A stretch of DNA of 39,468 nucleotides from Betaproteobacteria bacterium (lineage in GTDB: Bacteria > Pseudomonadota > Gammaproteobacteria > Burkholderiales > SG8-41), in contig CANKUB010000033.1 in NCBI GenBank assembly GCA_947486575.1, forward strand, positions 1-39,468, given 5' to 3'. The stretch's first letter is position 1. Each line of letters begins with the position of its first letter. Of the stretch, positions 3,770-29,039 are shown one piece after another. The translations under genes were made by a program, and so were the position numbers. A model generated the notes under the pieces. That model was given only the letters and a program-made list of their open reading frames with translations. It searched no databases and was not told the origin of the DNA.

Positions 3770-4216
3770 CTAACTATTTGTTTTTAAATGATTATTTAAT
3801 TCCTGACAAAATGCGCTGATGCGCCGGGCGTTGACGCCTAAATCGGTTACGCCAATACGTGAGGCGGATCGCATGTCGAGTTGTGCGCCTGCGCCATGCG
3901 CACAAATGCGTATCACCACGTCGTCCTTGAATCGCAGAAAACGTGTGGCAGCAGTGGCCTCGATGCGGCCCTCCGCTTCAACGGCGGCGGCGATTGTCCA
4001 GTTGAGTGTGCGTGCAAGATCGAGAGCAACGTTAAATACTGCGGCAGGCGCTTGCATGAACACCGCCGTAGTTAACTCGGGATAACGCGCGCGATGCTTA
4101 TCAGCGCGCAGGCCGCTGTACTCAACGCCGTTCTCGCACTTGAGCCGGATCTCACGCAGCGCTACGAACGGTGGTGGATCGTCCGCAGCGGTGCAAACAT
4201 CGTGTATTAACCCCAT
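3770..4216 (-). CDS. DUF1499 family protein
   Basis: The C-terminal half carries the DUF1499 signature: TRFLRFKDDVVIRI followed by MRSASRIGVTDLGVNARRI. No catalytic role is established for the family. The ATG at 4216 overlaps the TGA of the upstream Bug gene (TGATG), which indicates translational coupling; a frame open to 4258 is less likely. At 148 residues it is of normal length. Its last codons read LKTNS-stop and lie inside a copy of the dispersed A/T repeat at 3771-3799, so the repeat supplies the stop codon. The same LKTN ending occurs in IspD in this window, where another copy of the repeat does the same. Confidence 0.8.
   Translation of the reverse strand: MGLIHDVCTAADDPPPFVALREIRLKCENGVEYSGLRADKHRARYPELTTAVFMQAPAAVFNVALDLARTLNWTIAAAVEAEGRIEATAATRFLRFKDDVVIRICAHGAGAQLDMRSASRIGVTDLGVNARRISAFCQELNNHLKTNS
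3771..3799 (+). repeat. Dispersed A/T repeat, copy 1 (forward)
   Basis: TAACTATTTGTTTTTAAA followed by TGATTATTTAA. It shares the 13-nt core ATTTGTTTTTAAA with copies near 8.9, 18.9, 24.0, 27.75 and 28.4 kb. It overlaps the last codons and stop of the DUF1499 gene. Confidence 0.75.
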
Positions 4217-5202
4217 CAATCGACTTTCACTTTGGCGGATTTGACCACCTTGGCCCACTTGGCGATTTCGTCCTTCAGATAGACGCCGAATTCCTCGGGT
4301 GTTTGCAGGGCAGGTTCTGCGCCCTGCGCGATGATGGAATTTCTCATCGTGGGTTCGTTGGTCACCTTCACGATCGCGTCATACAATCGCTGCACGATGG
4401 GTCGCGGTGTATTTGCGGGCGCCATGATGGAAATCCAAGATGCCACGTCAAAGCCCGCCAGCCCCGACTCGTGCGCGGTGGGCACATCAGGTGCGACGGC
4501 AGAGCGTTTCAGCGTGGTGGCGGCGATCAGCCGCAGCCGGCCACCTTTGGCGTGCGGTAGCGTAGCGGTGATGCCTGAGCAATACAGTTGCACTTGTCCA
4601 CCCAGCAGGTCAACCATCGCTGGCGCGCCGCCTTTGTATGGCACGTGTACCATGTCGATGCCCGCCATGGTTTTCAGCAACTCGCCACACAAATGCGGAG
4701 TACCGCCGCTGCCCGACGACGAAAAATGCAGCTTGCCCGGCTGCGTTTTGGCATAGGCAATAAATTCCTTGATGTTGTTGGCAGGTACCGACGGGTGTAT
4801 CGCGATGGCGTAAGGTATGGTGACAAAGCGTGCCACCGGCGCAAGATCACGCACGGGATCGTAGGGCAATTTGGAAAAAACACTGGGGCCGATGGCGAGC
4901 GTGCCGTTGACGCCGAGCAGCAGCGTGTAGCCGTCTGGCGGTGCGCGCACGACGATTTCCGCGCCGATGTGTCCGCTGGCGCCAGAGCGGTTATCTACCA
5001 CGACTTGCTGGCCCAACACGTCGGTGAGTTTTTGCGCCAGCGCACGGCCAAGAATATCGTTGCTGCTGGAGCCTGCCGGAAACGGAATAATGAAGCGGAT
5101 CGGGCGCGTGGGATAGGTCTGTGCCGTCGCGCTAAACGATAAAGCGAAGAGCGATAAGGCAAAGAGTAATATTAAGTAATTGACCTTATTTATTATTTTC
5201 AC
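4216..5202 (-). CDS. Bug-family tripartite tricarboxylate transporter receptor 2
   Basis: This 328-residue periplasmic receptor has a signal peptide (KIINKVNYLILLFALSLF with an A-T-A-Q cleavage region), then YPTRPIRFIIPFPAGSS, VVDNRSGASG, PPDGYTLLLG and VPYKGGAPA, all hallmarks of Bug/TctC proteins. I place the start at GTG 5202, because it gives a clean signal peptide and a 4-bp gap after the previous gene; the frame is open further upstream but that part has no signal-peptide logic and overlaps the neighbour. It is the middle of a three-gene leftward unit (Bug3, Bug2, DUF1499). Ligand unknown. Confidence 0.92.
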   Translation of the reverse strand: MKIINKVNYLILLFALSLFALSFSATAQTYPTRPIRFIIPFPAGSSSNDILGRALAQKLTDVLGQQVVVDNRSGASGHIGAEIVVRAPPDGYTLLLGVNGTLAIGPSVFSKLPYDPVRDLAPVARFVTIPYAIAIHPSVPANNIKEFIAYAKTQPGKLHFSSSGSGGTPHLCGELLKTMAGIDMVHVPYKGGAPAMVDLLGGQVQLYCSGITATLPHAKGGRLRLIAATTLKRSAVAPDVPTAHESGLAGFDVASWISIMAPANTPRPIVQRLYDAIVKVTNEPTMRNSIIAQGAEPALQTPEEFGVYLKDEIAKWAKVVKSAKVKVD

Positions 5203-5206
5203 AATA

Positions 5207-6184
5207 TTACTCGGTCTGAATTTTTGCGGCTTTGACCAGTTTTGCCCACTTGGCGATATCGCTCTTGATATCCGCTGCGAACGCCTCCGGGTCGAGCAGC
5301 GCCATCTCCGCACCTTGCTGTTGCACGAAAGTTTTCATGTCATCCGTTTGAGTGATTTTCGCCAGCGTGCCATACAGTTTTTGCACAATGGCACGCGGCG
5401 TTTTGGCGGGCGCGACGATGCCTGTCCATGACGTCACTTCAAAATTCTTCAGGCCCTGTTCGTTGATTGTGGGAATGTCCGGCATCAGCGCGGAGCGTTT
5501 CAGCGTGGCCATGCCGATGGGCCGCATGCGTCCGGCCTTGATCAACGCATTAAGCGCGGTCAGGCCGGAACAGAACATCTGAATCTGCCCGGACAGCACA
5601 TCGGTGGTGGCGACCCCGGCGCCCTTGTACGGTACGTGCACCATGTCGGTCGCGGCCACCGTGTTGAACAACTCACCACACAAATGCGGCGAGCTGCCCA
5701 CGCCTGACGACGCAAAATTAATGCTGCGCGGTTTGGCCTTCGCCAGTGCGATCAATTCTTTCACGTTTTGCGCGGGCAGGCTGTTGGTCACCACCATCAC
5801 ATACGGAATAATTGCAATGCGTGCCACTGCGGCGAAATCGCGCGTGGCGTCGTAACCGATTTGTTTGTAGACCGCCGGTGCAACCGTCAGCGGCCCGGCA
5901 ATGGCCACCAGCAGGGTGTAGCCATCGGGTGGGGCTTTGGCGACAATTTCGCTGCCGGACGTGCCGCCTGCACCGGCGCGGTTATCGACCACGACTTGCT
6001 GGCCCAGTGCCAGTGTCATGCGCTGCGCCAGGCCACGACCCAGAATATCGTTGGTGCTGGAGCCGGGCGAAAATGGCACGATCAGGCGGATAGGGCGCGA
6101 GGGGTAGACCTCGGTTTGTGCATGAACCGTTGCGCCGATTGTTAGGGATACAATCCCGAATACTAGGCTAACTAATTGTTTCAA
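5207..6184 (-). CDS. Bug-family tripartite tricarboxylate transporter receptor 3
   Basis: This 325-residue Bug/TctC receptor has a signal peptide ending near TVHAQ, then YPSRPIRLIVPFSPGSS, VVDNRAGAGG, PPDGYTLLVA, VPYKGAGVA and the C-terminal IAKWAKLVKAAKI. It is close in sequence to the next gene downstream (same PGSSTNDILGR-type loop and FCSGLTALNA), suggesting tandem duplication. The start is a TTG at 6184 with AGGA about nine bases upstream. First gene of the leftward Bug3-Bug2-DUF1499 unit. Ligand unknown. Confidence 0.92.
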   Translation of the reverse strand: MKQLVSLVFGIVSLTIGATVHAQTEVYPSRPIRLIVPFSPGSSTNDILGRGLAQRMTLALGQQVVVDNRAGAGGTSGSEIVAKAPPDGYTLLVAIAGPLTVAPAVYKQIGYDATRDFAAVARIAIIPYVMVVTNSLPAQNVKELIALAKAKPRSINFASSGVGSSPHLCGELFNTVAATDMVHVPYKGAGVATTDVLSGQIQMFCSGLTALNALIKAGRMRPIGMATLKRSALMPDIPTINEQGLKNFEVTSWTGIVAPAKTPRAIVQKLYGTLAKITQTDDMKTFVQQQGAEMALLDPEAFAADIKSDIAKWAKLVKAAKIQTE

Positions 6185-6292
6185 TGAATAAATTCCTGAA
6201 GAGATGAGAGGGCGTCAGCGCGGTAAGGATGGGCATTAGTTTAACCCATGCGCTGCGTATAATCGCTCGTGACAAAGCATTCAAAAGTTCGC

Positions 6293-6320
6293 CTTGTCAT
6301 TCCCGCGCAGGCGAGGATGA
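6293..6320. repeat. REP-like imperfect inverted repeat (copy A)
   Basis: The sequence around GTCATTCCCGCGCAGGCG folds back on GATGAC at its right end (GTCATtC / GgATGAC). It resembles the TCATTCCCGC-type palindromes that are dispersed in many proteobacterial genomes. A second, cleaner copy lies at 6976-7009 on the far side of the mocA-like gene. Confidence 0.55.
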
Positions 6321-6362
6321 CGCGGGTGGTTTTACACCGAGATTACTTTTACGCCAATATTC

Positions 6363-6950
6363 ATGGCTGACAGACAACAGCATCATATCGCAGGTATCCT
6401 CCTCGCCGCAGGCGCAGGCTCCCGCTTCGGCGGCGGCAAATTGCTGCATCCGCTGGATGGCGTTGCCATCGGTGTGCGCTCTGCGCGCAACATGCTGGCC
6501 GCCGGTTTGCAGGTGACGGCTGTGGTGCGGCCCGGTAGTGACGAACTGACGCGTCTGCTGCACATCGAGGGCGTGGATGTCACGGTGTGCGCGAATGCCG
6601 CCGATGGCATGGGCGTGAGTCTAGCGCATGTGATTGCGCATACAAGCGGTGCCGCAGGATGGGTAGTGGCGCTTGCGGATATGCCGCGCATACGGCCCGC
6701 AACCATCCAATGCATTGCGGATGTCGTGAGCTCAGGTGCGTTGATCGCAGCGCCCGCATTTCATGGTGAGCGCGGTCACCCGGTAGGTTTCAGCGCGGCG
6801 TTGCGTGATGAATTGCTGGCGTGCCTCGGCGATGAAGGCGCGCGCGCAGTCGTTAAACGCCACTATGCGGAAATTCGGCTTGTAGCTAGCGACGACCCCG
6901 GCGTGATTTTTGATATCGACCGCAAAGAAGATGTGCCGCCACCGGTATAA
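6363..6950 (+). CDS. MobA/MocA-like nucleotidyltransferase
   Basis: This 195-residue NTP transferase has the N-terminal nucleotide-binding signature GILLAAGAGSRFGGGKLL (residues about 11-28) and the metal-binding LADMP region near 100, followed by GHPVGFS. These are typical of molybdenum cofactor cytidylyltransferase (MocA) and relatives that cytidylylate or guanylylate molybdopterin. Molybdenum hydroxylase maturation often uses MocA together with MoxR and CoxE-like VWA proteins, both of which follow here, so a role in maturing a CO-dehydrogenase-type enzyme is a fair inference. No molybdenum hydroxylase subunits are in the window. The gene is flanked by two REP-like palindromes. Confidence 0.82.
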   Translation: MADRQQHHIAGILLAAGAGSRFGGGKLLHPLDGVAIGVRSARNMLAAGLQVTAVVRPGSDELTRLLHIEGVDVTVCANAADGMGVSLAHVIAHTSGAAGWVVALADMPRIRPATIQCIADVVSSGALIAAPAFHGERGHPVGFSAALRDELLACLGDEGARAVVKRHYAEIRLVASDDPGVIFDIDRKEDVPPPV

Positions 6951-6975
6951 TTACCCATTGTTCAGCGTAGTTGCC

Positions 6976-7009
6976 TGCCGTCATTGCCGCTTGTGCAGGA
7001 ATGACGGCA
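6976..7009. repeat. REP-like perfect inverted repeat (copy B)
   Basis: TGCCGTCATT at 6976-6985 pairs perfectly with AATGACGGCA at 7000-7009 across a 14-nt loop containing CCGCTTGTGCAGG. It may act as a transcription barrier after the mocA-like gene, but there is no T-run long enough to call a terminator. Confidence 0.65.
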
Positions 7010-7033
7010 AGTTTTAATCTCAAGGAATCCAAC

Positions 7034-7873
7034 ATGCGTTTTGAAGGCACCGACAATTACGTAGCAACTCACGACCTGATGCTGGCGGTCAATGCGGCCA
7101 TCACCCTGGAGCGTCCGCTGTTGATCAAGGGCGAGCCCGGCACCGGCAAAACCATGCTGGCACTTGAAGTGGCCAAGGCGCTGAAGCGTCCGCTCTATGA
7201 GTGGCACATCAAATCCACCACTAAGGCGCAGCACGGGCTGTATGAATATGACGCGGTGTCGCGGCTGCGTGATTCGCAATTGGGCGACGAAAAAGTCAAA
7301 GACATTTCTAATTACATCATTCAGGGCATGTTGTGGAAAGCGTTTGAGTCGCCGGAGCACTCCGTGCTGCTGATCGACGAAGTGGACAAGGCCGATATCG
7401 AATTTCCGAACGACCTGCTGCGCGAGCTCGACCGCATGGAGTTTTATGTCTACGAGACGCAAAAACTGGTGAAAGCCACCACGCGGCCACTGGTGATTAT
7501 CACCAGCAACAACGAAAAAGAGTTGCCTGATGCGTTTTTGCGGCGCTGTTTCTTCCACTACATTCGATTCCCCGATCGCGAGACCATGACGCAGATCGTC
7601 GACGTGCATTTCCCCGACATCAAGAAGATTCTGCTCAATCAGGCGCTGAATGCGTTCTTTGAAATTCGCGACGTGCCGGGCTTGAAGAAAAAGCCGTCTA
7701 CCTCCGAATTGCTCGATTGGCTCAAGCTGCTGGTGGCGGAAGATATCTCGCCGGAAGCGCTGCATAGCCAGGATCAGCACAAGATTATTCCACCGCTGCA
7801 CGGCGCGCTGCTCAAAAACGAGCAGGACGTGCATTTGTTTGAGCGCCTCGTGTTCATGTCGCGCAAGAAATAG
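7034..7873 (+). CDS. MoxR-family AAA+ ATPase
   Basis: This 279-residue AAA+ protein has Walker A GEPGTGKT near residues 33-40, Walker B VLLIDEVDKAD near 112-122, sensor 1 TSNNEKELPDAF and the arginine-finger region LRRCFFHYIRFPDRE. This is the MoxR/CoxD-like group, which works with VWA proteins as chaperones for cofactor insertion or complex assembly. The ATG at 7034 has AAGGA eight bases upstream, and the homologous sequence begins right there. Its usual partner, a CoxE-like VWA protein, is found at 8901, separated by two unrelated small genes rather than being directly adjacent. Confidence 0.9.
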   Translation: MRFEGTDNYVATHDLMLAVNAAITLERPLLIKGEPGTGKTMLALEVAKALKRPLYEWHIKSTTKAQHGLYEYDAVSRLRDSQLGDEKVKDISNYIIQGMLWKAFESPEHSVLLIDEVDKADIEFPNDLLRELDRMEFYVYETQKLVKATTRPLVIITSNNEKELPDAFLRRCFFHYIRFPDRETMTQIVDVHFPDIKKILLNQALNAFFEIRDVPGLKKKPSTSELLDWLKLLVAEDISPEALHSQDQHKIIPPLHGALLKNEQDVHLFERLVFMSRKK

Positions 7874-8760: not shown

Positions 8761-8882
8761 GTCGGTTCTCCTTTACACTAAAACGGTTTTGGATCATTGC
8801 GGCAAAGATCGCCGCGCACATCCATACTAACGCCGCAGGTACGATTAAAGTCGTTACAAATTGTAAGTTGATGTTTATGAAA

Positions 8883-8909
8883 AATATTGTTTAAAAACAA
8901 ATGCTTATA
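8883..8909 (-). repeat. Dispersed A/T repeat, copy 2 (reverse)
   Basis: AATATTGTTTAAAAACAAATG then CTTATA. It contains the perfect inverted repeat TTGTTTAAAAACAA. The start codon of the VWA gene (8901) is inside the repeat. Confidence 0.75.
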
Positions 8910-10082
8910 GAATTCTTCCTGAAATTGAAAGAAGGCGGGGTGCCGGTCTCCATCAAGGAGTTTCTGGTTTTGATCGAAGCCTTTCAAAAACAAGTGATTT
9001 TTGGCAGTGTCGAGGATTTTTACCATCTCGCACGCATTTGCTTGGTGAAAGACGAAAAATACTTTGATCGCTACGACCGCGTATTTTCGGCGTATTTCAA
9101 GGGCATCATTGATGTGGAAGACATCGAGACCAAAATCCCCGAGGAATGGCTGAAACTGCTCGCTGAGCGGCATCTCACTGAAGAAGAAAAAAAGCTGATC
9201 GAATCGCTCGGCGGCTGGGAAAAACTGATGGAGACGCTGAAAAAGCGCCTCGAAGAACAAAAAGGCCGTCATCAAGGCGGCAACAAATGGATAGGAACGG
9301 CGGGCACGTCACCGTTCGGTGCCTACGGCTACAACCCCGAAGGGGTGCGTATAGGCCAGCAGGAATCGCGTAACCGCAAAGCGGTAAAGGTGTGGGACAA
9401 GCGAGAGTATAAGAATCTTGACGACACCGTGGAGCTCGGCGTGCGCAACGTCAAAGTGGCGCTGCGCAAGCTGCGTAAATTCGCACGCACCGGTTCGCCC
9501 GACGAACTGGATATGGAAGACACCATTCGCTCCACCGCCAAAAACGCCGGCTGGCTGGATCTGAAAATGGTGCCCGAGCGCCACAACGCGGTGAAGGTGC
9601 TGCTGTTTTTTGATATCGGCGGCTCGATGGACGATCACATTCGCGTATGCGAGCAGTTGTTCTCGGCGACGCGCACCGAGTTCAAGCACATGGAGTATTT
9701 TTACTTCCACAATTTTTTGTATGAACGCGTGTGGAAGGACAACCGCCGTCGTCATACCGAGCGCATGTTCACCCAGGAAGTGTTGCGCACCTTTGCACAC
9801 GACTACAAAGTGATTTTTGTCGGCGATGCGACCATGAGTCCGTATGAAATTACCTTCCCCGGCGGCAGTGTCGAGCACACCAACGAAGAACCGGGCGCAG
9901 TGTGGTTGCAGCGCGTGCTTGATGTGTACCCGAATACCATCTGGATCAATCCGCAAAACGAAACGCTGTGGGATTACCACGAGTCAATCCGCATCACACG
10001 CCAGATCATGCAAAACCGCATGTTTCCGCTGACGCTGGATGGGCTGGATCGCGGCATGCGCTTGCTCAGCAAAAAGCAATAG
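8901..10082 (+). CDS. CoxE-like VWA domain protein
   Basis: This 393-residue protein starts with the helical N-terminus typical of CoxE-like proteins (FFLKLKEGGVPVSIKEFLVL) and has a charged middle segment. Its VWA domain carries a metal-ion site reading DIGGSMDDH near residues 238-246, in place of the classic DxSxS, plus GDATMSPYEI further on. CoxE-like proteins partner with MoxR ATPases in metalloenzyme maturation or complex remodelling; the MoxR gene is 1 kb upstream. The ATG is embedded in a dispersed A/T repeat, and no good Shine-Dalgarno sequence precedes it. Confidence 0.88.
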   Translation: MLIEFFLKLKEGGVPVSIKEFLVLIEAFQKQVIFGSVEDFYHLARICLVKDEKYFDRYDRVFSAYFKGIIDVEDIETKIPEEWLKLLAERHLTEEEKKLIESLGGWEKLMETLKKRLEEQKGRHQGGNKWIGTAGTSPFGAYGYNPEGVRIGQQESRNRKAVKVWDKREYKNLDDTVELGVRNVKVALRKLRKFARTGSPDELDMEDTIRSTAKNAGWLDLKMVPERHNAVKVLLFFDIGGSMDDHIRVCEQLFSATRTEFKHMEYFYFHNFLYERVWKDNRRRHTERMFTQEVLRTFAHDYKVIFVGDATMSPYEITFPGGSVEHTNEEPGAVWLQRVLDVYPNTIWINPQNETLWDYHESIRITRQIMQNRMFPLTLDGLDRGMRLLSKKQ

Positions 10083-10143
10083 GCGCAGCCTGCAAAATAC
10101 CATCGTTTGTGCTCGATATTGCATTCATCGTAGCCAGGAATTA

Positions 10144-10171
10144 ATGCAAGTATCTGTTTTTATTGAATAAA
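10144..10171 (+). repeat. Dispersed A/T repeat, variant copy
   Basis: Reads ATGCAAGTATCTGTTTTTAT then TGAATAAA. It differs from the main core but shares GTTTTTATTGAATA with the reverse complement of the copy at 14654, so the two form a subtype. It lies in the recA upstream region. Confidence 0.5.
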
Positions 10172-10201
10172 TTTTGAGTGGAGTTTGTGAAAATCGGATA
10201 G

Positions 10202-12037: not shown

Positions 12038-14644
12038 ATGAAAAGCAACGAGATACGCACAAAATTCCTCGACTATTTCGCCGGAAAAGGCCACGCCATA
12101 GTCGCCTCCGCCCCACTGGTGCCGGGCAACGATCCGACGCTGCTGTTCACCAACTCCGGCATGGTGCAGTTCAAGGATGTTTTTCTGGGGCAAGACAATC
12201 GCAATTACTTGCGTGCCACCACCTCTCAGCGCTGCGTGCGCGCAGGCGGCAAACATAACGATCTGGAAAACGTCGGCTATACCGCGCGCCATCACACGTT
12301 TTTCGAGATGCTGGGTAACTTCAGTTTCGGCGATTATTTCAAAAAAGATGCGATTCATTTCGCGTGGGAGCTGCTCACAGGCGTTTACCAACTACCGAAA
12401 GACAAACTGTGGGTCACGGTATATCAAACCGACGACGAAGCGTTTGATATCTGGAGCAAGCAAATCGGTGTGCCGGTTGAGCGCATCGTGCGCATCGGCG
12501 ACAAACCCGGCGGCGGTTCGGATAACTTCTGGCAGATGGCCGACACCGGCCCTTGCGGCCCGTGCAGCGAGATTTTTTTCGATCACGGGGCAGAAGTTGC
12601 CGGTGGTCCGCCCGGCTCGCCGGATGCCGATGGCGACCGCTATATCGAAATCTGGAATCTGGTGTTCATGCAGTTCAATCGCGACGACAAAGGCACGCTG
12701 CATCCGCTGCCCAAGCCCTCGGTTGATACCGGCATGGGGTTGGAGCGCATCGCCGCCGTGTTGCAGCACGTGCATTCCAACTATGAGATTGATTTATTTC
12801 AAGCATTGATTAAAGCCGCTGCGCGCGAAACCCAAACCAAAGACGTTACCAATAATTCACTCAAGGTCATTGCCGATCACATCCGCGCCACAGCGTTCCT
12901 GATTGTCGACGGCGTGATTCCCGGCAACGAAGGCCGTGGTTATGTTTTGCGGCGCATTATTCGCCGCGCGATTCGCCACGGATATCAGTTGGGGCAGAAA
13001 AAGCCGTTTTTTTACAACATCGTTGCGGATCTGGTGAAAGCCATGGGCGAGGCGTATCCCGAGCTTGTCGCCGTAAAAGATCGTGTCGCCGCCGTACTTA
13101 AGCAAGAAGAAGAGCGCTTCGCTGAAACACTCGAAAACGGCATGAAAGTTCTGGAGGCGGCGTTGACCCGCGAAGATCACATGCTCGATGGTGATACGGT
13201 GTTTCAGCTGTACGACACGTTTGGTTTCCCGGTTGATCTCACCGCCGACATCGCCCGCGAGCGCAATGTGCGCGTGGATTACGCAGGCTACGAAGCGGCC
13301 ATGCAGCGCCAGCGCGAAACCGCGCGTGCGGCGTCAAAATTCCAGATGGGCAGCGCGGTCGAATACTCCGGCGCCAAAACCGTGTTCAAGGGCTACGACA
13401 CGCTCGCGGTGGCGGATGCCCAGGTTGTGGCGATCTACCGCGACGGCACTTCAGTTCAATCCATCACGGGTGGCGAAGCGGGCATTGTGGTGCTGGATCA
13501 CACGCCGTTTTACGCGGAGTCTGGCGGCCAGGCGGGTGATGTGGGCGAACTCGACGCGGCTAATGGCACTTTCGTGGTCAGCGACACTTTAAAAATTCAG
13601 CCGGATGTATTTAGCCATCACGGAAAACTGTCCGCAGGCACGCTCGCCGTCGGCGACAAGCTTGCCGCAAAAGTGGATACCGCGCGCCGCGCGCGTACCA
13701 TGCGCAATCACTCGGCCACGCATCTGATGCACAAGGCGCTGCGCGAGGTGCTGGGTGCACATGTACAGCAAAAAGGCTCGCTGGTGGACGCGGCTAAAAC
13801 GCGTTTTGACTTTTCGCATAACGAGCCGATGAGCGACGAACAAATCCGCAAAGTCGAAGCCCTGGTGAATCAAGAGGTGCTGACCAATGCAGCCACATCA
13901 GCGCGCGTGATGAAATTTGACGATGCCGTCAAAGCAGGGGCGATGGCGCTGTTCGGCGAGAAATACGGCGACGAAGTGCGCATGCTCGATATCGGCACCT
14001 CGCGTGAATTGTGCGGCGGCACGCATGTGGCGCGCACTGGCGATATCGGGTTTTTTAAAGTGGTCGGCGAAACCGGCATTGCCGCAGGCGTGCGTCGTAT
14101 CGAAGCGACCACTGGCGAAGGTGCGCTGACGTGGGTGCAGCAGCAGGAAGATATGCTCGATAGCGCTGCGGCTGCGCTGAAGTCCGGCCCGCATGAAGTC
14201 GCGCAAAAAATCACGCAAATGCTGGATAACGTGCGCAATCTCGAAAAAGAACTCGCACGCTTGAAATCCAAACTCGCGTCATCACAAGGCGACGATCTCG
14301 CGGGCCAGGCGGTGGATGTTAAAGGCGTCAAAGTCCTAGCCGCCACGATGGACGGCGCAGACAGCAAGGGCCTGCGCGAGTCACTCGATAAACTCAAAGA
14401 CAAATTAAAGTCGGCGGCGATTGTGCTGGCCGCAGTTGAAGGCCATAAGGTAACGCTGATCGCAGGCGTAACCGCTGATCTCACCAGCAAACTCAAAGCG
14501 GGTGAATTGGTGAATCATGTCGCACAGCAAGTCGGCGGCAAAGGTGGTGGACGGGCAGACATGGCGCAGGCGGGCGGCACGGATGCGACGAAACTGCCCG
14601 AAGCACTGGCTTCGGTGCGCGCCTGGGTTGAAGCCAAGGTATAG
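12038..14644 (+). CDS. alaS: Alanyl-tRNA synthetase
   Basis: This 868-residue class II synthetase charges tRNA-Ala and edits mischarged Ser/Gly. The N-terminal catalytic domain begins [15 protein letters not shown], with class II motifs [17 protein letters not shown] and [12 protein letters not shown]. The editing domain carries HSATHLMH (HxxxH near residue 558) and CGGTH near 658, which form the zinc site. The C-Ala domain ends with [14 protein letters not shown]. Length matches the family (876 in E. coli). The 172 bp between recX and alaS likely holds a promoter but I cannot define it firmly. Confidence 0.97.
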
Positions 14645-14653
14645 AAAGTATTC

Positions 14654-14671
14654 AATAAAAACAAATAGTTA
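14654..14671 (-). repeat. Dispersed A/T repeat, variant copy
   Basis: AATAAAAACAAATAGTTA, preceded by TTC, between alaS and the YceH gene. It provides the TAG that closes the YceH reading frame on its upstream side, so the TTG at 14681 is the first possible start. Confidence 0.6.
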
Positions 14672-14680
14672 GTTACGCCG

Positions 14681-18826: not shown

Positions 18827-18855
18827 GCTGCGCCATGCACCTTCCGTGAACCATA

Positions 18856-18881
18856 AATAATCATTTAAAAACAAATGGTTA
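18856..18881 (-). repeat. Dispersed A/T repeat, copy 3 (reverse)
   Basis: AATAATCATTTAAAAACAAA then TGGTTA. It contains the CATTT / AAATG inverted repeat around a GTTTTT loop (minus-strand reading). The cupin start codon at 18875 is inside the repeat. Confidence 0.75.
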
Positions 18882-19396
18882 CGAAATATGAGGCCAAGAT
18901 GAACAGCAGCAGGAATAAAGCAAAGCCGGCGTTGCAGACAGCGCTGAAAATTCGCCGCATGAAGGAAGATAAATTCGTGCACTTTCTGAATCCCGGCGCA
19001 ATTCGCTACACGCGCTCGCTGGGGGACGCAGCGGGGCTGGAAACGCTGGGCGTGCATCTGGTGCGATTAAAGGGCGGCGACGTCAGTACTGAATTCCACT
19101 ATCACCATCAGGACGAAGAGTGGGTTTACATTTTAAGTGGCCGGGGTGTCGCCGAAATCGGTGCAAAAAAATACAAAATTGCGGCGGGAGATTTCATGGG
19201 ATTCGTAGCCGGCTCTGAGCCGCACGCCATGACCAATCCACACAAAAAAGATTTGCTGTATCTGGTTGGCGGCAACCGCTGCCCGCTGGATGTTTGCGAT
19301 TACCCGCGCATTAACAAACGGCGTTATCGTGAGAATGGCAATAATGTGTATGTGGATCTGGCGGCGCTGATACCTGTAAAGCGGAATTTGAAGTAG
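18875..19396 (+). CDS. Cupin domain protein
   Basis: This 173-residue protein has a single cupin barrel: motif 1 EFHYHHQDEEWVYILSGRG with the metal-binding His/Glu set (residues about 70-88), motif 2 AGDFMGFVAGSEPHAMTN. Such proteins bind a divalent metal and may act as isomerases, dioxygenases or sensors; the substrate is unknown. The basic N-terminus (residues 1-45) precedes the barrel. The ATG at 18875 lies in a dispersed A/T repeat with no clear Shine-Dalgarno; an internal ATG at 18899 is an alternative start. Confidence 0.8.
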   Translation: MVTKYEAKMNSSRNKAKPALQTALKIRRMKEDKFVHFLNPGAIRYTRSLGDAAGLETLGVHLVRLKGGDVSTEFHYHHQDEEWVYILSGRGVAEIGAKKYKIAAGDFMGFVAGSEPHAMTNPHKKDLLYLVGGNRCPLDVCDYPRINKRRYRENGNNVYVDLAALIPVKRNLK

Positions 19397-19403: not shown

Positions 19404-20783
19404 TTAAAACGGCAATTCCATTCCCGGCTTGACTGCTAGCAAGGCGCGCCGAAAATCATTTTGAATGCGCTTGATGGCGGCCTCGGTATCCGCTTCAAAC
19501 CGCAACACGATTACCGGTGTGGTGTTCGATGGCCGTGCGAGGCCAAAGCCATCGGCGTATTCGACGCGCACGCCGTCGATTGAAATAATCTCCCGCGCGC
19601 CTTCAAACCTGGCATTCTTTTTAAGGGCGTCCATCAGTGTGTAATTTTCGCCTTCAGCGGTGTGCACATGCAGTTCAGGTGTGCTGACGGCATCGGGCAG
19701 ATTTTCGAGCGCAGCGCTGAGGTCAGGCACGCGCGAAAGAATCTCCAGCAAGCGCGCGCCAGCATAGAGTGCATCATCAAAGCCGTACCAGCGTTCCTTG
19801 AAGAACATGTGGCCGCTCATTTCTCCGGCGAGCGGTGCGCCGGTTTTTTTGAGTTTCGCCTTGATGAACGAGTGGCCGGTTTTCCACATCAGCGGTTTGC
19901 CGCCACGATCACGCACCCACTTGAATAGATTGCGCGTGGATTTCACGTCGAAAATGATTTCTGCACCTGGGTTGCGTTTCAGTACGTCGTCCGCGAACAG
20001 CATCAACTGGCGGTCGGGATAGATGATTTTTCCGCTTTTGGTAACCACGCCCAGCCGGTCACCGTCACCATCAAAGGCCAAGCCGATTTCTGCGTCGCCC
20101 GTTTTCAACGCCGTAATCAAATCTTGCAGATTTTTCGGTTGCGACGGATCGGGATGATGGTTCGGAAAGCGGCTGTCCACATCACAAAATAGCTCTTGTA
20201 CATCGCAACCCAGACGGCGATAGAGTTCCGGTGCAAATGCGCCAGCAACGCCGTTGCCGCAATCGACGGCGATTTTTATTTTGCGTGCAACTTTGATGTC
20301 GCCAACGATGCGGCTTAAATACGCTTCGCGGATATCGTGTGTGCGGTAGCCGCCTGCGCCGTGAGTCAAGTCTCCACCCTCGATGCGTTTGCGCAGCGCC
20401 TGTATGTCGTCGCCCGCGAGCGTATCGCCCGCCAGCATCATTTTCAAACCGTTGTATTCCGGCGGATTGTGCGAGCCAGTGACCATCACGCCGGAATGTG
20501 TGTTGAGTGCATACGTGGTGAAATACACCATCGGTGTTGCGACCATGCCCACATCCACTACGTCAACGCCGCTGGCGCGAAGCCCGCGCGCGAGTGCGGC
20601 TGAAAGATCAGGCCCCGATTCGCGGCCATCGCGACCGATAGCAACTTCGGTTTGTTTACGCGCAATCGCTTCCGAGCCGATGGCGTGGCCGATGTTTTCA
20701 ACAGCTTCTATAGTGAGCGCTGTTTTGACGATGCCGCGTATATCGTACGCTTTGAATATTTCTGGCGGGGCTAATTTTGACAC
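19404..20783 (-). CDS. Phosphomannomutase/phosphoglucomutase
   Basis: This 459-residue alpha-D-phosphohexomutase interconverts hexose 1- and 6-phosphates, feeding GDP-mannose, LPS or exopolysaccharide synthesis. The phosphoserine loop TGSHNPPEYNG puts the catalytic Ser at 104; the magnesium loop DGDGDR is at 238-243; the sugar-binding loop GEMSGHMFF follows near 320; the phosphate-binding region VRYxDGFGLARPSNTTP type sequence (here VEYADGFGLARPSNTTP) is near the C-terminus. Length matches AlgC-type enzymes. Start is a GTG at 20783. It follows the YheT gene by 29 bp, with an A/T repeat between them. Confidence 0.93.
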   Translation of the reverse strand: MSKLAPPEIFKAYDIRGIVKTALTIEAVENIGHAIGSEAIARKQTEVAIGRDGRESGPDLSAALARGLRASGVDVVDVGMVATPMVYFTTYALNTHSGVMVTGSHNPPEYNGLKMMLAGDTLAGDDIQALRKRIEGGDLTHGAGGYRTHDIREAYLSRIVGDIKVARKIKIAVDCGNGVAGAFAPELYRRLGCDVQELFCDVDSRFPNHHPDPSQPKNLQDLITALKTGDAEIGLAFDGDGDRLGVVTKSGKIIYPDRQLMLFADDVLKRNPGAEIIFDVKSTRNLFKWVRDRGGKPLMWKTGHSFIKAKLKKTGAPLAGEMSGHMFFKERWYGFDDALYAGARLLEILSRVPDLSAALENLPDAVSTPELHVHTAEGENYTLMDALKKNARFEGAREIISIDGVRVEYADGFGLARPSNTTPVIVLRFEADTEAAIKRIQNDFRRALLAVKPGMELPF

Positions 20784-20792
20784 AAAAAATCC

Positions 20793-20810
20793 TTTAAAAA
20801 CATATAGTTA
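20793..20810 (-). repeat. Dispersed A/T repeat, copy 4 (reverse, one mismatch)
   Basis: TTTAAAAACATATAGTTA, one base different from the common TTTAAAAACAAATNGTTA. It fills most of the 29-bp gap between the YheT and phosphohexomutase genes. Confidence 0.65.
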
Positions 20811-20812
20811 TA

Positions 20813-21826
20813 TCACTCTATGGAGAAGAATCGCAACAGCCGTTGCGGTAGCCAGTTGATGTTACCCGGAAAGCTTCCGCTGACAAAGCCCACATGCCCG
20901 CCTGCTGCGGGTGTTTCCAGCACCACGTGCGCTGAGACTTCCTGTGGCGCGGGCAGGAAACGCGCAGGCAGAAAAGGATCATTGCGCGCATTTAGTACCA
21001 ACGTCGGTGCAGCGATGGATTTGAGATATGGTTTGCTGCTGGCGCGCCGGTAGTAGTCGTCAACACTGTTAAATCCGTGCAGCGGCGCTGTCACCAGATC
21101 ATCGAACTCACGCACGGTACGGGCGGCAAGCATGCGGCGCTGGTCGCACAGCGCGGGGTAGCGTTTCATCTTGGCCAGCGTTTTGGCTTTCAATGTTGTC
21201 AGAAACCGCCGCGTGTAAACCAGGTTAAAACCGTGCGCGAGCGCTTCGCCAACCGCGATCAGGTCGAGCGGGGCGCACACGGCTGCTGCGCGGGTGATGA
21301 CAGCGCGCGCGTTTTCGCCTTGCTCACCCAGCCATTTGAGCAACGCGTTGCCACCCAGCGATACGCCCGTTACATATATGGGCCCGGTGCGTGTGGAGCG
21401 TAAACGACGCAGTATCCAGTCGATCTCGGCGCTGTCGCCGGAATGGTAGGCGCGTGGCAGCCGGTTAATTTCGCCACCGCAACCGCGAAAATGCACCACC
21501 ACGCCGCGCCAGCCGCGCTCAGCTACCGTGTGCATCAGTGCAACGGCATATTGGCTGGTTGAATCGCCTTCAAGTCCGTGAAACAGCACCACCAGCGGCG
21601 TTTCATCCTGTTGATTGAGTTTTAAATCCGCTGCGGCGTGCTCAGGCGACTCCACCCAATCGAGATCAATGAAATCGAAATCGGGTGTCTCCCAACGATC
21701 ACGCCAGTAAGTCACCTGTGGGCGCGGCGCCCAGGTTGCGGCGTGTATGGTTTGCACGTGGCCGCCGGGCAGCCAGCGTGGGGCGAGGTAGGCGGTGGAG
21801 ACGTTTTTGGAGTCAGACGTAGACAT
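20813..21826 (-). CDS. YheT-family alpha/beta hydrolase
   Basis: This 337-residue hydrolase has the YheT layout: WLPGGHVQTI near residues 18-27, LVVLFHGLEGDSTSQY, VVVHFRGCGGEINRLPRAYHSGD, nucleophile GVSLGGN (Ser near 156), acid in LNARNDPFLP, and catalytic His in AAGGHVGFVSG. The family is cytosolic, widely conserved in proteobacteria and of unsettled substrate. It is the first gene of a two-gene leftward unit with the phosphohexomutase. Confidence 0.9.
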   Translation of the reverse strand: MSTSDSKNVSTAYLAPRWLPGGHVQTIHAATWAPRPQVTYWRDRWETPDFDFIDLDWVESPEHAAADLKLNQQDETPLVVLFHGLEGDSTSQYAVALMHTVAERGWRGVVVHFRGCGGEINRLPRAYHSGDSAEIDWILRRLRSTRTGPIYVTGVSLGGNALLKWLGEQGENARAVITRAAAVCAPLDLIAVGEALAHGFNLVYTRRFLTTLKAKTLAKMKRYPALCDQRRMLAARTVREFDDLVTAPLHGFNSVDDYYRRASSKPYLKSIAAPTLVLNARNDPFLPARFLPAPQEVSAHVVLETPAAGGHVGFVSGSFPGNINWLPQRLLRFFSIE

Positions 21827-23916: not shown

Positions 23917-23972
23917 AGCGGATGATCAAAATCGAGCCCCTCGTTTACATGCTTGTGTTGTGGATATTGTTG

Positions 23973-23995
23973 TAACTATTTGTTTTTAAACAATA

Positions 23996-24000
<5 letters not shown>
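23973..24000 (+). repeat. Dispersed A/T repeat, copy 5 (forward)
   Basis: TAACTATTTGTTTTTAAACA then ATATTATT. It contains the perfect inverted repeat TTGTTTTTAAACAA. The TAA stop of amrS (23996-23998) is inside it. A convergent Bug gene ends about 55 bp to the left. Confidence 0.75.
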
Positions 24001-25102
<1,102 letters not shown>

Positions 25103-25111
25103 GATCAAGGG

Positions 25112-25696
25112 TCAGACCTGCGGTGGAGATTCACGCAGTTTAGCGACAGTGTAGACGTGGATTTCTATGCCGGGCTCCCAGAAATTCGGCGGTAGCCCGG
25201 CTTTTTGCTTGAGTGTCGCCATAAACATGGCAGGGTCGGAGAAGTTGTCCCAAACCTGGGGCAGGTAAGTGCTGCGATGATGGCCATACTGAAAAATTAC
25301 CCCATGCACGTTTGGCTTTAATTGCGCCAGTGCGGAGGTTTCATCCGTGAATTTCAGCGCAGTCAGCGGCGATAGCAGAGATATTTCGATTTCGATGCTG
25401 TCGTACTCAGTAGCCGTCAATGGTTTGAAGCGCGGGTCTTTAAATGCCGCTGCGCAGGCGTTGGCTTTGACGTCATCGAGCAGTGGACGATGCGCCTGCA
25501 GCGAGCCGATACAGCCGCGCAATTTTTTAGCGAGATTCAGCGTGATGAACGTGGCGCATTGCTTGCGCAGCCACGGTGCGCTTTCGTCGGCAGTGAGCGG
25601 TTTGCCCAGTGGACTGGCAATTGCCGCGCGCGCTATGGGTAGCAGCGTGCTGGAGGCCTCGGCGTGGCTTTCAGTGAGGGGTATGTCTGGATTCAT
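25112..25696 (-). CDS. amrA: AmmeMemoRadiSam system protein A (AMMECR1)
   Basis: This 194-residue AMMECR1-domain protein has the family core TFITLNLAKKLRGCIGSLQAHRPLLDDVKANACAAAFKDPRF (residues about 50-92), where LRGCIGS is the invariant motif, then IEIEISLLSPL and FLPQVW-type sequence (TYLPQVWDNF). Function is unknown, though the invariant Cys suggests catalysis or binding. The ATG at 25696 starts inside the last 26 bases of amrB; the frame is open to 25768, but the family homology begins after 25696. Stop is 9 bp before the amrS start. Confidence 0.9.
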   Translation of the reverse strand: MNPDIPLTESHAEASSTLLPIARAAIASPLGKPLTADESAPWLRKQCATFITLNLAKKLRGCIGSLQAHRPLLDDVKANACAAAFKDPRFKPLTATEYDSIEIEISLLSPLTALKFTDETSALAQLKPNVHGVIFQYGHHRSTYLPQVWDNFSDPAMFMATLKQKAGLPPNFWEPGIEIHVYTVAKLRESPPQV

Positions 25697-26480
25697 AAAA
25701 AGTAAATGCGCCATAACCAACCACGCGCGCTTTATCACCGGCGGTGTCGCCAGAACTGCGCAGGTCAATCAGCTGCGGTTTCAGGCCGCGTTGTTGCGCG
25801 AGCAGTGTCAGGCCGTTTATCGGTGTTGCGCCACAGGCTTGTTGGTGACTAATATCAGTGCGTAGATCGAGTATCGCTTGCGCAGTACCATTATCCACTT
25901 TCTGTGCATCGGCATAGGGCAGGTAGTGCGACAAATCCGAGCTGATCACAATCAATGTTTCATCACCGCCCCACAGCAGTTCTAGTACCGTGGCGACCTG
26001 TTGCACCGATGCATGCCCGACAGCCAGCGGCAGCAGTGTAAATTCGTCGAGGACTTTTTGCAGAAATGGCAATTGCACTTCGAGTGAATGCTCCATCCGG
26101 TGTGCTTCAGCACTGGCTCCTGCGTAGGGTAAGGCCATGAGCTTTTTCACGGAAGCGAAATCAATAGGTACTGTGCCCAGCGGTGTGGAAAATGCGTCGA
26201 CGCCGGGTAAAGCCACGCCGTGCACGGCTACGCGATGCGTAGGCCCTAGTAGCACTACGCGTTTGATGTGCGCGCGCGCAGGGGCGATCAAGGCGTAGAT
26301 GCTGGCGGCCACCGGCCCGGAATAAATAAAACCGGCGTGCGGTACGATGATAGCTTTGGGAACAGGTGCCGCAGTTACAGGGGTTGCAGCAAGCAACATG
26401 GCATCGACGCTGCGCGCTAGTTCATCTGCCCGACCCGGGTAAAACGTTCCTGCAATAGCGGCGGGGCGTACCGATGCCAT
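25671..26480 (-). CDS. amrB: AmmeMemoRadiSam system protein B (Memo-like)
   Basis: This 269-residue Memo-family protein is related to extradiol dioxygenases. Visible features are AGTFYPGRADEL near residues 10-21, the His-bearing VPHAGFIYSGPVAASIYA near 46-63, LLGPTHRVAVHGVALPG, EHSLEVQLPFLQ and VISSDLSHYLPY. These supply the conserved putative metal-site histidines. It is first of the three amr genes, 11 bp after the yidB-like gene, and overlaps amrA by 26 bp. Confidence 0.92.
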   Translation of the reverse strand: MASVRPAAIAGTFYPGRADELARSVDAMLLAATPVTAAPVPKAIIVPHAGFIYSGPVAASIYALIAPARAHIKRVVLLGPTHRVAVHGVALPGVDAFSTPLGTVPIDFASVKKLMALPYAGASAEAHRMEHSLEVQLPFLQKVLDEFTLLPLAVGHASVQQVATVLELLWGGDETLIVISSDLSHYLPYADAQKVDNGTAQAILDLRTDISHQQACGATPINGLTLLAQQRGLKPQLIDLRSSGDTAGDKARVVGYGAFTFYESRHTPH

Positions 26481-26491
26481 GCCGACCTAGC

Positions 26492-26944
26492 TTACTTGCC
26501 AATGCCCAGCGAGCCGAGCATTTTTTCCAGGGAATCTTGCTGCGGCACCTGGCCATCGGGTGTGAGCTTATCCACCAGACTAGGCAGAATTTGCGACAGG
26601 CCTGAGGCTGCTTCGCCGTGCGACATGCCGGCCTGTTGCGCAAGCTGCGCCAGAATACCGCCTACGCCGCCGTCACCACCGAGGGCGCTGGTAATTTGAT
26701 CGGGCGACACGGGCATATTCTGACCAGTACCCACCCACGAACTTGCCACATTGCCCAAGCCGCCTTGCGTCAACGCGCCCACTAGCGCACCCAGTCCACC
26801 ACCTGCACCGCCTGCGCCCCCGGCACCTTTGTTGGCAATCATCTTTATCACCGCGTTGATCAGCGCTGCCTGCCCGGAGCCTTGGCCTTGGGCTGCGCCA
26901 CCACCGCCGAGTACCGAACCCAGTATCGAATCGAGTAAGCCCAT
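26492..26944 (-). CDS. YidB/DUF937 family protein
   Basis: This 150-residue protein begins MGLLDSILGSVLGGG and has a Gly/Ala-rich linker (AGGAGGAGGGLGALVGAL), followed by MPVSPDQITSALGGDGGVGGILAQLAQQAGMSHGEAASGLSQILPSLVDKLTPDGQVP, the DUF937/YidB C-terminal domain (positions about 76-137). Function is unknown. It is the first gene of the leftward unit yidB-amrB-amrA-amrS. A GGAATCAAC-type ribosome site precedes the ATG. Confidence 0.85.
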   Translation of the reverse strand: MGLLDSILGSVLGGGGAAQGQGSGQAALINAVIKMIANKGAGGAGGAGGGLGALVGALTQGGLGNVASSWVGTGQNMPVSPDQITSALGGDGGVGGILAQLAQQAGMSHGEAASGLSQILPSLVDKLTPDGQVPQQDSLEKMLGSLGIGK

Positions 26945-27075
26945 GTTGATTCCTTTCGTTGTAGTGAATAGATTGATTTTCGAACGGCAATTATAGGGGA
27001 TGAAGTGAAAGAATTTTGTGTCAGGACTGCTAGAATTGCACCGATGAAACCTATTTCACCCAAATGTAAACGGCC

Positions 27076-27768
27076 ATGTCTGATATTCATGCGCTGATTC
27101 CCGCGGCCGGATCGGGTAGTCGCATGGGTGCGGAAATACCCAAGCAATATCAACCACTTGCAGGCCGGCCGTTGATTCAATATGCGGTGGGTGTGCTGTG
27201 CGCTCATGCACGAATAGTGCAGGTTTTTGTGGTACTGTCACCCGAAGATACGCATTTCAGGCGGCAGGATTGGTCAGCGTACAAAGACCGCTTGTCGCCA
27301 CTGTATTGCGGTGGTGACACGCGCGCAGCGAGCGTGCTGAATGGGTTAATGGCAATGGCAGATGCCGTAGAACCCGATGATTGGGTGATGGTGCATGACG
27401 CGGCGCGCCCGTGCTTGACAGCGCCGTTGATTGATCGCTTGATCAACGAAGTGGCCGACGACACGGTAGGCGGTTTGCTCGCCGTGCCAGTGGCGGATAC
27501 ACTCAAGCATGCGGACGCAACCAACCGTGTCGTCAGCACGGCACCGCGTGACCATTTGTGGCAGGCGCAAACGCCGCAAATGTTTCGCTATCGATTGCTG
27601 CTTGAGGCATTGCGTAAGGCCACCGGCGGCAGCGTGACCGATGAAGCCAGTGCCGTGGAGCAAATGGGTTTACACCCGCGTTTAGTGATGGGCAGCCCCG
27701 GCAATCTGAAAGTGACCTGGCCCGAAGATAGCCGCTTTGCGGAAATTGCTTTAAAAACAAATTGTTAG
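27076..27768 (+). CDS. ispD: 2-C-methyl-D-erythritol 4-phosphate cytidylyltransferase
   Basis: IspD makes CDP-methylerythritol in the non-mevalonate isoprenoid pathway. This 230-residue protein has the nucleotide signature PAAGSGSRMGAEIPKQYQPL (residues 8-27), VHDAARPCL, the APRDHLWQAQTPQMFRY region and VTDEASAVEQMG, with GNLKVTWPEDS near the end; length is normal. ispF, which usually follows ispD, is not present. The last five codons (LKTNC-stop) are written by the dispersed A/T repeat copy at 27750. Confidence 0.95.
   Translation: MSDIHALIPAAGSGSRMGAEIPKQYQPLAGRPLIQYAVGVLCAHARIVQVFVVLSPEDTHFRRQDWSAYKDRLSPLYCGGDTRAASVLNGLMAMADAVEPDDWVMVHDAARPCLTAPLIDRLINEVADDTVGGLLAVPVADTLKHADATNRVVSTAPRDHLWQAQTPQMFRYRLLLEALRKATGGSVTDEASAVEQMGLHPRLVMGSPGNLKVTWPEDSRFAEIALKTNC
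27750..27767 (-). repeat. Dispersed A/T repeat, copy 6 (reverse)
   Basis: TTTAAAAACAAATTGTTA. It encodes the LKTNC end of IspD and contributes the first two bases of its TAG stop codon. Confidence 0.75.
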
Positions 27769-27836
27769 CGATCCATTACAATACGCGCTTAATCGGCGAG
27801 GTTAACGCAATTGAAAGTGACGGAGAATCCATCTTG

Positions 27837-28430
27837 ATGCAGCACTGGCGCAGCGTGGCAGTAACATTTTGCGTGGCGGCGGCAATAGCGTGTGCGCCCG
27901 CAACGTTATACGCACAACAGAAACCAGCAGCTAAAGCCACGCCAGCGACAAAACCCGTGGCGAAGGCCGTGGTAAAAGGCCCGCCGCGCGGCCCGGTTGA
28001 AAAATATGATTGCAAAACTGGCACTGAGGATGAGCATGCGCGCCTCGCGATATTGGCACAGGGCGGCGAAGTGCAAAGTTTGGCGTATTACAGCAAATGG
28101 AAGCCCCGCACCTGCTCAGTGCATTTGCAGCGCAACGAAGCGTTTAGCAAATGGAAAGATACTGGCGAAGCAACCACAATTACTACTGATTATGGCGATT
28201 TTTTAATTCAAGTCAGTCGTGGTGAATATCAATTATTTTTCCGTGAAGTGGATCGGATGCACTTCTGCGGCATGATGGGCAAACTCAATGGATCAATGAC
28301 CGTGACGCGCGGCCCCAAGCGTCAGTGCTCAGTGGAAGGCATCATGGATCGCAACGAGAGCGAGGCGCATCACGAAAAAGTGGACACGGCCAAGCCCGCA
28401 GATGCAACCGGTGAAGCGGTTGTGCGATAG
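27837..28430 (+). CDS. Secreted protein, paralog A of a tandem pair
   Basis: This 197-residue protein has a signal peptide (VAVTFCVAAAIACAPATLYA, cut near QQ), an Ala/Lys/Pro-rich linker to about residue 55, then a folded domain with KYDCKTGTEDEHARLAILAQGG, YYSKWKPRTCS and FCGMMGKLNGSMTVTRGPK. Four cysteines are shared with the next gene, suggesting two disulfides. I recognise no family. The ATG at 27837 is chosen because it precedes the signal peptide; an in-frame TTG lies directly before it. Confidence 0.65.
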   Translation: MQHWRSVAVTFCVAAAIACAPATLYAQQKPAAKATPATKPVAKAVVKGPPRGPVEKYDCKTGTEDEHARLAILAQGGEVQSLAYYSKWKPRTCSVHLQRNEAFSKWKDTGEATTITTDYGDFLIQVSRGEYQLFFREVDRMHFCGMMGKLNGSMTVTRGPKRQCSVEGIMDRNESEAHHEKVDTAKPADATGEAVVR

Positions 28431-29039
28431 ATGCAAGTATTTGTTTTTAAACAATTATTTTTGATGGTCCTAGCGTTGTCTGTGTTAGGTGGTTGTGCAG
28501 CGCGCAAGCCCGTCATGCAGCCGGACCAGTCGCAGCCATCTGCGCAACCTGCGGTAGTTGAGCCGCCATCTGTGCCGCGTATTGATCCGATGGCCGACGT
28601 GCCGGGCGACAAACCGTTGCCTGCGTTAACAGGGGCGCTTGAGAGAATAGATTGCATGAACGGCGACGAAGACCTGCACGCACGCATCGCGTTTGAGGCG
28701 CGCGGCGGGCGCGTTATCAATTTTGCGTATTACAGTAAATGGAAGCCACGTACCTGCGCATTTGACTTCTCCCGTACGTCGCCAGGTACCAAATGGCGGC
28801 TTACATCTGACGGTTCCATACGCGTGCATACGTTGCAGGGGCGGTTTTTGATTCGCACTACTGCCGATAGTTACGTATTTGAATTTGAGCAAGTGCAACG
28901 CGGTAAATTCTGCGGCATGCCCGGCGATATCAATGGCACTATGACCGTTACGCGCGGCGCCAGTAAAGCAGATTGTTCAGTCGCAGGTATTATGGACACC
29001 AACGATCCGTATCTCGACGCCCTGCGCAAAGCAAAATAG
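28431..29039 (+). CDS. Putative lipoprotein, paralog B of a tandem pair
   Basis: This 202-residue protein has a lipoprotein signal peptide with lipobox LGGC (Cys near residue 22), a Pro-rich linker, then RIDCMNGDEDLHARIAFEARGG, YYSKWKPRTCA and FCGMPGDINGTMTVTRGAS, the same domain as paralog A just upstream. It starts directly after the TAG of paralog A. The first codons (MQVFVFKQLFL) are written by a dispersed A/T repeat, so the repeat forms part of the signal peptide. Function unknown; probably outer-membrane or periplasmic anchored. Confidence 0.7.
   Translation: MQVFVFKQLFLMVLALSVLGGCAARKPVMQPDQSQPSAQPAVVEPPSVPRIDPMADVPGDKPLPALTGALERIDCMNGDEDLHARIAFEARGGRVINFAYYSKWKPRTCAFDFSRTSPGTKWRLTSDGSIRVHTLQGRFLIRTTADSYVFEFEQVQRGKFCGMPGDINGTMTVTRGASKADCSVAGIMDTNDPYLDALRKAK
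28435..28462 (+). repeat. Dispersed A/T repeat, copy 7 (forward)
   Basis: AAGTATTTGTTTTTAAACAA then TTATTTTT, with the perfect inverted repeat TTGTTTTTAAACAA. It lies within the first codons of the lipoprotein gene. Confidence 0.75.

Follow-up and report, generated by a model that had tools for sequence, protein, structure and literature searches.

The stretch analyzed here, a 39,468-bp contig of a Betaproteobacteria bacterium (CANKUB010000033.1, hereafter the window), is contig 33 of a 282-contig, 5.35-Mb genome and carries a dispersed A/T-rich repeat, mainly at gene boundaries. The repeat is a real, lineage-specific motif that occurs genome-wide. The host lineage, apparently uncultured, probably belongs to the order Burkholderiales. 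An initial annotation of the window listed seven core copies, and all seven are present within a few bases of where it placed them (3776+, 8890-, 18864-, 20793- with one change, 23978+, 27750- and 28439+). It also held such an A/T word to be rare by chance. Allowing up to two mismatches, the window has ten core matches, whereas 100 shuffles average 0.83 and none of them reaches ten; two of the ten (5859 and 8983) are not instances of the longer motif described below. Scored with a position weight matrix (PWM), the window copies are as follows.

3764..3799, plus strand: motif copy, AAA class (PWM 44.7)
5166..5201, plus strand: weak copy (PWM 21.0)
6162..6197, plus strand: weak copy (PWM 19.5)
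8857..8892, plus strand: weaker half of an overlapping inverted pair (PWM 24.7)
8879..8914, minus strand: strong half of the same pair, AAA class (PWM 47.0)
10140..10175, plus strand: copy 5' of recA, ATT class (PWM 42.8); position kept in six sister species and weakened in species G009
14643..14678, minus strand: copy at the alaS 3' end, ATT class (PWM 38.0); found in nine other species too
18853..18888, minus strand: motif copy, AAA class (PWM 45.5)
20782..20817, minus strand: copy between two genes, 5' of a phosphoglucomutase/phosphomannomutase-like gene (PWM 42.9)
23966..24001, plus strand: copy between convergent genes, AAA class (PWM 48.8)
27739..27774, minus strand: copy overlapping the last codons of ispD (PWM 24.4)
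28427..28462, plus strand: copy within the first codons of an open reading frame (ORF) that is signal-peptide-like by eye (PWM 46.7)

The two copies at 8857-8914 overlap and face each other. Rfam at gathering thresholds detects nothing but tRNAs across the window.

A 33-bp motif across the genome

The exact core ATTTGTTTTTAAA occurs 92 times in the genome (45 and 47 copies on the two strands) versus 0 for the reversed pattern; this covers part of the genome-wide check that the initial annotation had proposed. A wider form, TAASYATTTGTTTTT with a W 15 bases on and up to two mismatches, has 838 matches genome-wide against 23 in the control. Alignment of all 92 exact-core copies places conservation from a few bases 5' of TAA to about 27 bases past it, where it ends. 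The consensus is one motif of about 33 bp, YRTAASYATTTGTTTTTA(AA/TT)SAWWWWTTT, with two 3' classes. The unit first described is genuine, but it measures about 33 bp rather than 13. Its two supposed variants (10152+ and 14654-) exist and represent the second 3' class of the same motif, with ATT for AAA, which is equally common. The perfect inverted repeat TTGTTTTTAAACAA is a palindrome confined to a subset of copies.

An unbiased sample of 439,468 bp, comprising parts of contigs C1-C4 and the window, contains 73 copies of TAASYATTTGTTTTTA at up to two mismatches and none of the reversed control. Within this set, which was chosen by resemblance, the mid-motif TG.TT is invariant. The T run is followed mostly by AAA or ATT, then by C/G and A, and then by an A/T tract that ends in T. 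At a PWM threshold of 16, and with hits that overlap within 20 bp counted as one, the sample holds 129 sites. For the 120-kb part of C1, three shuffled versions average 0.0 sites, against 40 in the real sequence. Re-estimating the matrix at a low threshold made it drift and raised the reversed-sequence control, so the first-round matrix and the threshold of 16 were used.

Placement, spacing and replacement within genes

The motif sits predominantly between genes. With gene calls that mark 90% of the sample as coding, 89 of the 129 sites fall in or at gene gaps and 40 inside called genes. Density reaches 2.75 sites per kb in tandem gaps, 1.81 in convergent gaps and 1.06 in divergent gaps, compared with 0.10 in genes, so that intergenic density is roughly 20-fold that in genes. 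The initial annotation had named a lack of genome-wide excess, or free occurrence inside genes, as what would speak against the repeat, and the counts show neither. It had also placed every copy at an intergenic or gene-end position. This describes most copies, but those at 28439 and 27750 touch genes, as do the 40 in-gene sites of the sample.

The sites are close to strand-neutral (57 plus, 72 minus). In tandem gaps 28 follow the direction of the genes and 33 oppose it, and orientation relative to GC skew (60 of 129) has no bias. A replication-polar site, of which Chi and KOPS are known types, was rejected for this lack of skew bias. Inside genes, 32 copies are antisense and eight are sense. 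Judged by eye, two frames can stay open when the motif is read antisense and one, hydrophobic, when it is read sense. This 32:8 excess resembles the excess of reverse complements within genes that is reported, in the part of the source consulted, for known uptake sequences (PMC2346458).

Ten of the 92 exact-core copies stand at the very start of an ORF reading [MLV]FKNK, seven of which encode TctC-type binding proteins. From these and the other in-gene copies we conclude that protein starts, helices and linkers can accommodate the motif. The seven TctC-type proteins (L001, L029, L030, L032, L056, L070 and L079) begin with [ML]FKNK, for which the motif's reverse complement codes. Another locus (L184:9837-12197) encodes a 787-aa protein that by eye resembles a CofG-CofH fusion, and a motif copy there codes for part of the linker between the two halves.

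Spacing is more even than expected by chance. At a PWM score of at least 20, the 110 intervals have a mean of about 3.5 kb and a coefficient of variation (CV) of 0.60. Uniform placement gives a CV of 0.96 and gap-based placement 0.85. Under a mixed null the mean CV is 0.90 and none of 1000 simulations falls to the observed value, which also holds at thresholds of 16 and 25. The variance-to-mean ratio in 7-kb bins is 0.45, under the 0.1% point of the Poisson expectation (0.55), and 16 sister loci have a CV of 0.62 across 33 intervals. For Haemophilus influenzae, excerpts of one study present relative evenness as the expected outcome of uptake-driven accumulation (PMC7811141).

The in-gene copies offer a view of how the motif arises. 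The FolD gene carries a near-perfect antisense copy (score 49.1), and we scored this site in 30 orthologues; G011 has no FolD match. A copy occurs at the identical base in 11 of the 12 motif-bearing orthologues of the genus, the window genome included (33.6-49.1), and in G018 (34.3), which represents the motif-rich outgroup genus g6. G014 has a score of 16.6 at the same place, G009 has no copy (-7.2), and the remaining 15 outgroup orthologues score below 0. Across the first 45 residues, 29 of the 30 proteins, again including that of the window genome, have no insertion or deletion. The weak copies in GlmS and GlpD (about 33 each) align without gaps to solved homologues. The FolD, GlmS and GlpD copies therefore replace sequence and leave protein length unchanged. 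The uptake signal sequence (USS) of the Pasteurellaceae was likewise tested for insertion by Redfield and co-workers, under a heading that states that USS are not insertions (PMC1626085, seen in part).

Other shared sites are also traceable across species. The alaS 3' end carries a copy in ten of the 12 motif-bearing genomes of the genus examined, with a differing flank beyond it in several of them; alaS is without a match in G008. No copy occurs there in G009, nor in the relatives L086, L087, L089 and L090. In seven species a good copy (38-50) lies 117-149 nt 5' of recA, and G009 has a weaker one (24.5) at 114 nt. This site is uninformative in G003, G006 and G007, where contig ends cut the gene or its upstream DNA. 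The copies 5' of the phosphomannomutase-like gene range across species from good through intermediate to absent. Such graded states at orthologous sites fit base-by-base evolution.

Distribution among relatives and competence genes

The motif is confined to one family among 60 genomes, the window genome included, that were searched with TAASYATTTGTTTTTATT at up to two mismatches. Genus g1 has 165-954 copies in 13 of its 14 species; the fourteenth, G009, has 13. Related genera range widely, with 485 copies in g6, 108-274 in g7, 21-46 in g8, 0-18 in g2 and 0-1 in g3, g4, g5 and g9. The 24 genomes of other families have 0-3 copies, the level of the control. Six of the eight copies listed for G019 (g7) have a GATT form, and the matches in g8 include TAACYTRTTG forms; these may be dialects specific to subclades, as uptake sequences have.

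Several database records touch on this distribution. Contig SYEN01000397.1 (17,170 bp) of Burkholderiales bacterium F1-60-MAGs044 holds six copies and has 88% identity to one gene of the window genome. The metagenome record L086 (CAMDLH010000007.1) matches the query gene at 81% and has three copies in 21 kb; its title, Bordetella parapertussis, is probably wrong. In genus g8, loci L204 and L207 of G020 are rich in the words GTTCAAGGTT, TTCCAAGTT and TTCCGGGTT, often 7 bp or multiples apart and in several short arrays. The enriched GTTCAAGGTT words are largely such period-7 arrays, so a separate uptake motif in g8 was set aside.

Profile searches for comEC (PF03772), dprA (PF02481) and comM (TIGR00368) tie the motif to genes of natural transformation. 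A comEC match occurs in all 17 genomes with at least 100 copies, and all three genes are matched in 13 of the 14 genus members, with comEC fragmented in G011 and comM in G001. In the window genome, comEC, dprA and comM lie on separate contigs (C60, C27 and C46). Profile searches of the motif-poor G009, whose genome is 97% complete, return no match for comEC, dprA or comM. In the motif-rich G001, the comM parts on contig C98 (59900-67053) lie about 5.7 kb apart, as if split by inserted DNA.

G009 keeps FolD, AlaS and RecA. In a midpoint-rooted tree of the single gene FolD, G009 falls inside the genus (0.996) and G018 branches next outside (0.953). Because G018 has the FolD copy and branches outside G009, the copy is most simply older than the G009 branch and was lost there. 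G009 thus seems to have lost the motif rather than never to have had it, and the simplest history is that transformation was lost and the motif then decayed. This is one event in a smaller genome, which makes the case strong without amounting to proof.

Minor-pilin clusters were surveyed as well. They are apparently of two kinds, with or without a PilV-like gene (G001:C69, G005:C138 and G018:C6 versus G000:C37, G002:C29 and G012:C6), and the cluster of G007 is in two separate pieces. G009 has a single ComP_DUS-type hit, and the pilin of the one region examined there does not group with the minor pilins of its sisters.

A candidate uptake sequence and its rivals

Judging from the sequence comparisons above, we consider it probable that the motif is a self-DNA uptake sequence and its host lineage naturally transformable. 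The 33-bp motif would be bound, either way round, by a receptor on the cell surface, probably a minor pilin of type IV. The pilus would retract, a single strand would enter via ComEC, and DprA, RecA and ComM would recombine the incoming strand; these pathway steps are established in other bacteria. If fragments with a good motif enter more often, more motif-like alleles would displace less motif-like ones. Copies would then accumulate by base changes where these are tolerated, such as short intergenic gaps, linkers, helices and protein starts, until an uptake-sized fragment holds about one copy. The initial annotation proposed three explanations, a mobile element, a regulatory or terminator-like structure and a nucleoid-protein site. 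It was right that a genuine repeat lies at gene boundaries, but uptake was not among its proposals.

The main rival is the last of these, in which an abundant, sequence-specific nucleoid or chromosome-organizing protein would bind double-stranded DNA in either orientation at one site per about 3.5 kb. The strand-neutral, evenly spaced, A/T-rich copies with their partly palindromic subset, tolerated in some genes, suit such a protein. It does not predict, however, that the motif-poor G009 also lacks matches for comEC, dprA and comM, and the copies have no GC-skew polarity; we consider it unlikely. A cis-acting element of transcription or RNA (promoter, terminator, processing site or ribosome-binding region) could explain why many copies sit no more than 30 nt from a gene start or end, why some 3' ends (AAAGGA) resemble a Shine-Dalgarno sequence and why copies recur at the alaS end and 5' of recA in several species; one promoter-like pair also overlaps the copy at 3764. 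Yet copies in tandem gaps point both ways, and their density is lowest in the divergent gaps, where promoters lie. Six window copies fold weakly (-0.3 to -3.9 kcal/mol, z -2.2 to +0.95), and the hallmarks of an intrinsic terminator, a GC-rich hairpin and an oriented T tract, are absent from the copies. In 20 kb, promoter-like sites number 15 versus 11.4 in shuffled sequence and terminator-like sites 21 versus 27.4. Orientation, density and folding together make the regulatory or terminator-like structure highly improbable.

Repetitive extragenic palindromic (REP) elements, miniature inverted-repeat transposable elements (MITEs) and other short interspersed repeats have high copy numbers and are mainly intergenic. 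The motif is like them in both respects, and its hundreds of similar, family-restricted copies would also suit a MITE- or REP-like element of about 35 bp that inserts between genes. Unlike such repeats, it has no stable hairpin and no terminal repeats at the edges where conservation ends. The copies in FolD, GlmS and GlpD add no residues, which contradicts the mobile element of the initial annotation, and the graded forms at orthologous sites and the even spacing also run counter to insertion. We rejected this explanation and give it almost no weight.

Several observations count against an uptake sequence and are gathered here. Some expected copies are missing: the motif-rich G006 has none in FolD (-14.0), G003 and G006 have none at the alaS 3' end and G004 has none upstream of recA. 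MurB has a 4-residue gap directly 5' of the motif codons, and length was checked for four of the 40 in-gene copies, three of which gave a clear outcome. The gene caller is home-made. Among strong copies alone the evenness loses significance (167 of 1000 simulations reach as low a CV at PWM scores of at least 30, and 125 of 1000 at 35 or above), and in-gene copies do not lie in wider gaps than others (p 0.56), which leaves the idea that they fill gaps unsupported. The sample has only five inverted pairs, four of them self-palindromic, whereas genomes with USS or the DNA uptake sequence (DUS) of the Neisseriaceae have many. The motif-rich G018 has only comM fragments, and comEC and dprA also occur in many motif-free relatives. 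ComP_DUS-type pilins are found in motif-bearing and motif-free genomes alike, so they single out no receptor and were dropped as a discriminating marker. G009 keeps PilT and a ComEA-type protein. It is also the only such case, and its genome, at 4.0 Mb, is smaller and richer in A/T (47% GC in the 60 kb sampled versus 57%), so that many genes may have been lost.

The end of the window may be an example of acquired DNA that lacks copies. The stretch from 28.5 to 39.5 kb, which the initial annotation described as empty, indeed has no copy scoring at least 16. At 11 kb it is longer than any inter-copy gap in the sampled DNA, the largest of which is 10.6 kb. The region 29279-38627 within it encodes three tRNA genes, a helix-turn-helix regulator and the following two genes.

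36383-37216, plus strand: Rep ORF2/G2P gene (PF23343)
37394-38476, plus strand: phage-type integrase (PF00589)

This region is probably an integrated element, perhaps a filamentous-phage-like one. As one example, the copy-free stretch fits recently acquired DNA, in which known uptake sequences are reported to be scarce (PMC7811141, in the part consulted).

USS copies are mostly coding, and the class of uptake sequences has a dedicated surface receptor, ComP in one case and the proposed ComN in another. The parts consulted of two papers describe USS as discontinuous, with a core and A/T tracts, and up to 32 nt long (PMC1626085, PMC12616744); in the Hin type the second A/T tract is centered 12 positions from the first (PMC1626085). 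Our motif likewise has a core followed by two downstream A/T tracts about 12 nt apart (compare PMC1626085, PMC12616744). Like the Hin- and Apl-type USS, as described there and in excerpts of PMC7811141, it occurs in hundreds to thousands of copies on both strands, relatively evenly and not as insertions. Unlike USS, it lacks the GCGG inner core (consensus ATTTGTTTTT), is almost wholly A/T in a 57% GC genome and is about 69% intergenic; the uptake role of USS is known, and that of our motif is a proposed one. With the DUS it shares the character of a family-restricted, genome-wide tag in mostly permissive or intergenic places of the core genome, as far as the consulted parts of the sources describe it (PMC3630211, PMC2397512). 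The DUS is continuous, up to about 13 nt long, has a CTG core and often forms inverted pairs that act as terminators. The present motif differs in being about 33 nt long, discontinuous and rarely paired, with CTG in a minority of copies only. Without a GCGG or CTG core it is neither USS nor DUS by sequence, and by analogy we place it in the same functional class, unrelated to either in sequence.

A literature search on the letters of the motif returned only an unrelated Brucella promoter study. No reported equivalent was found in the literature searched, with most subscription journals outside its reach; like the initial annotation, we found no name for the repeat. A 2025 paper states, in the part consulted, that uptake specificity is known in only two families (PMC12616744). 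The motif would then likely be the third case of self-DNA uptake specificity, evolved independently of the other two and, in the literature searched, the first outside the Neisseriaceae and Pasteurellaceae. As a long, almost purely A/T motif in a GC-rich family, it may be read largely by DNA shape, with A/T tracts about one helical turn apart, and one species would amount to a natural knock-out, having lost motif and competence genes together.

If this is correct, the family would provide an independent replicate for how uptake specificity evolves, for weighing selection against molecular drive and for how a receptor reads its target. Within the genus, copy numbers are graded (165-954) and one species shows an apparent natural loss, and some of the related genera have the motif while others do not. 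A third specificity would also point to DNA exchange chiefly within the group of bacteria itself, and the motif could help to tell self from foreign when acquired DNA is sought.

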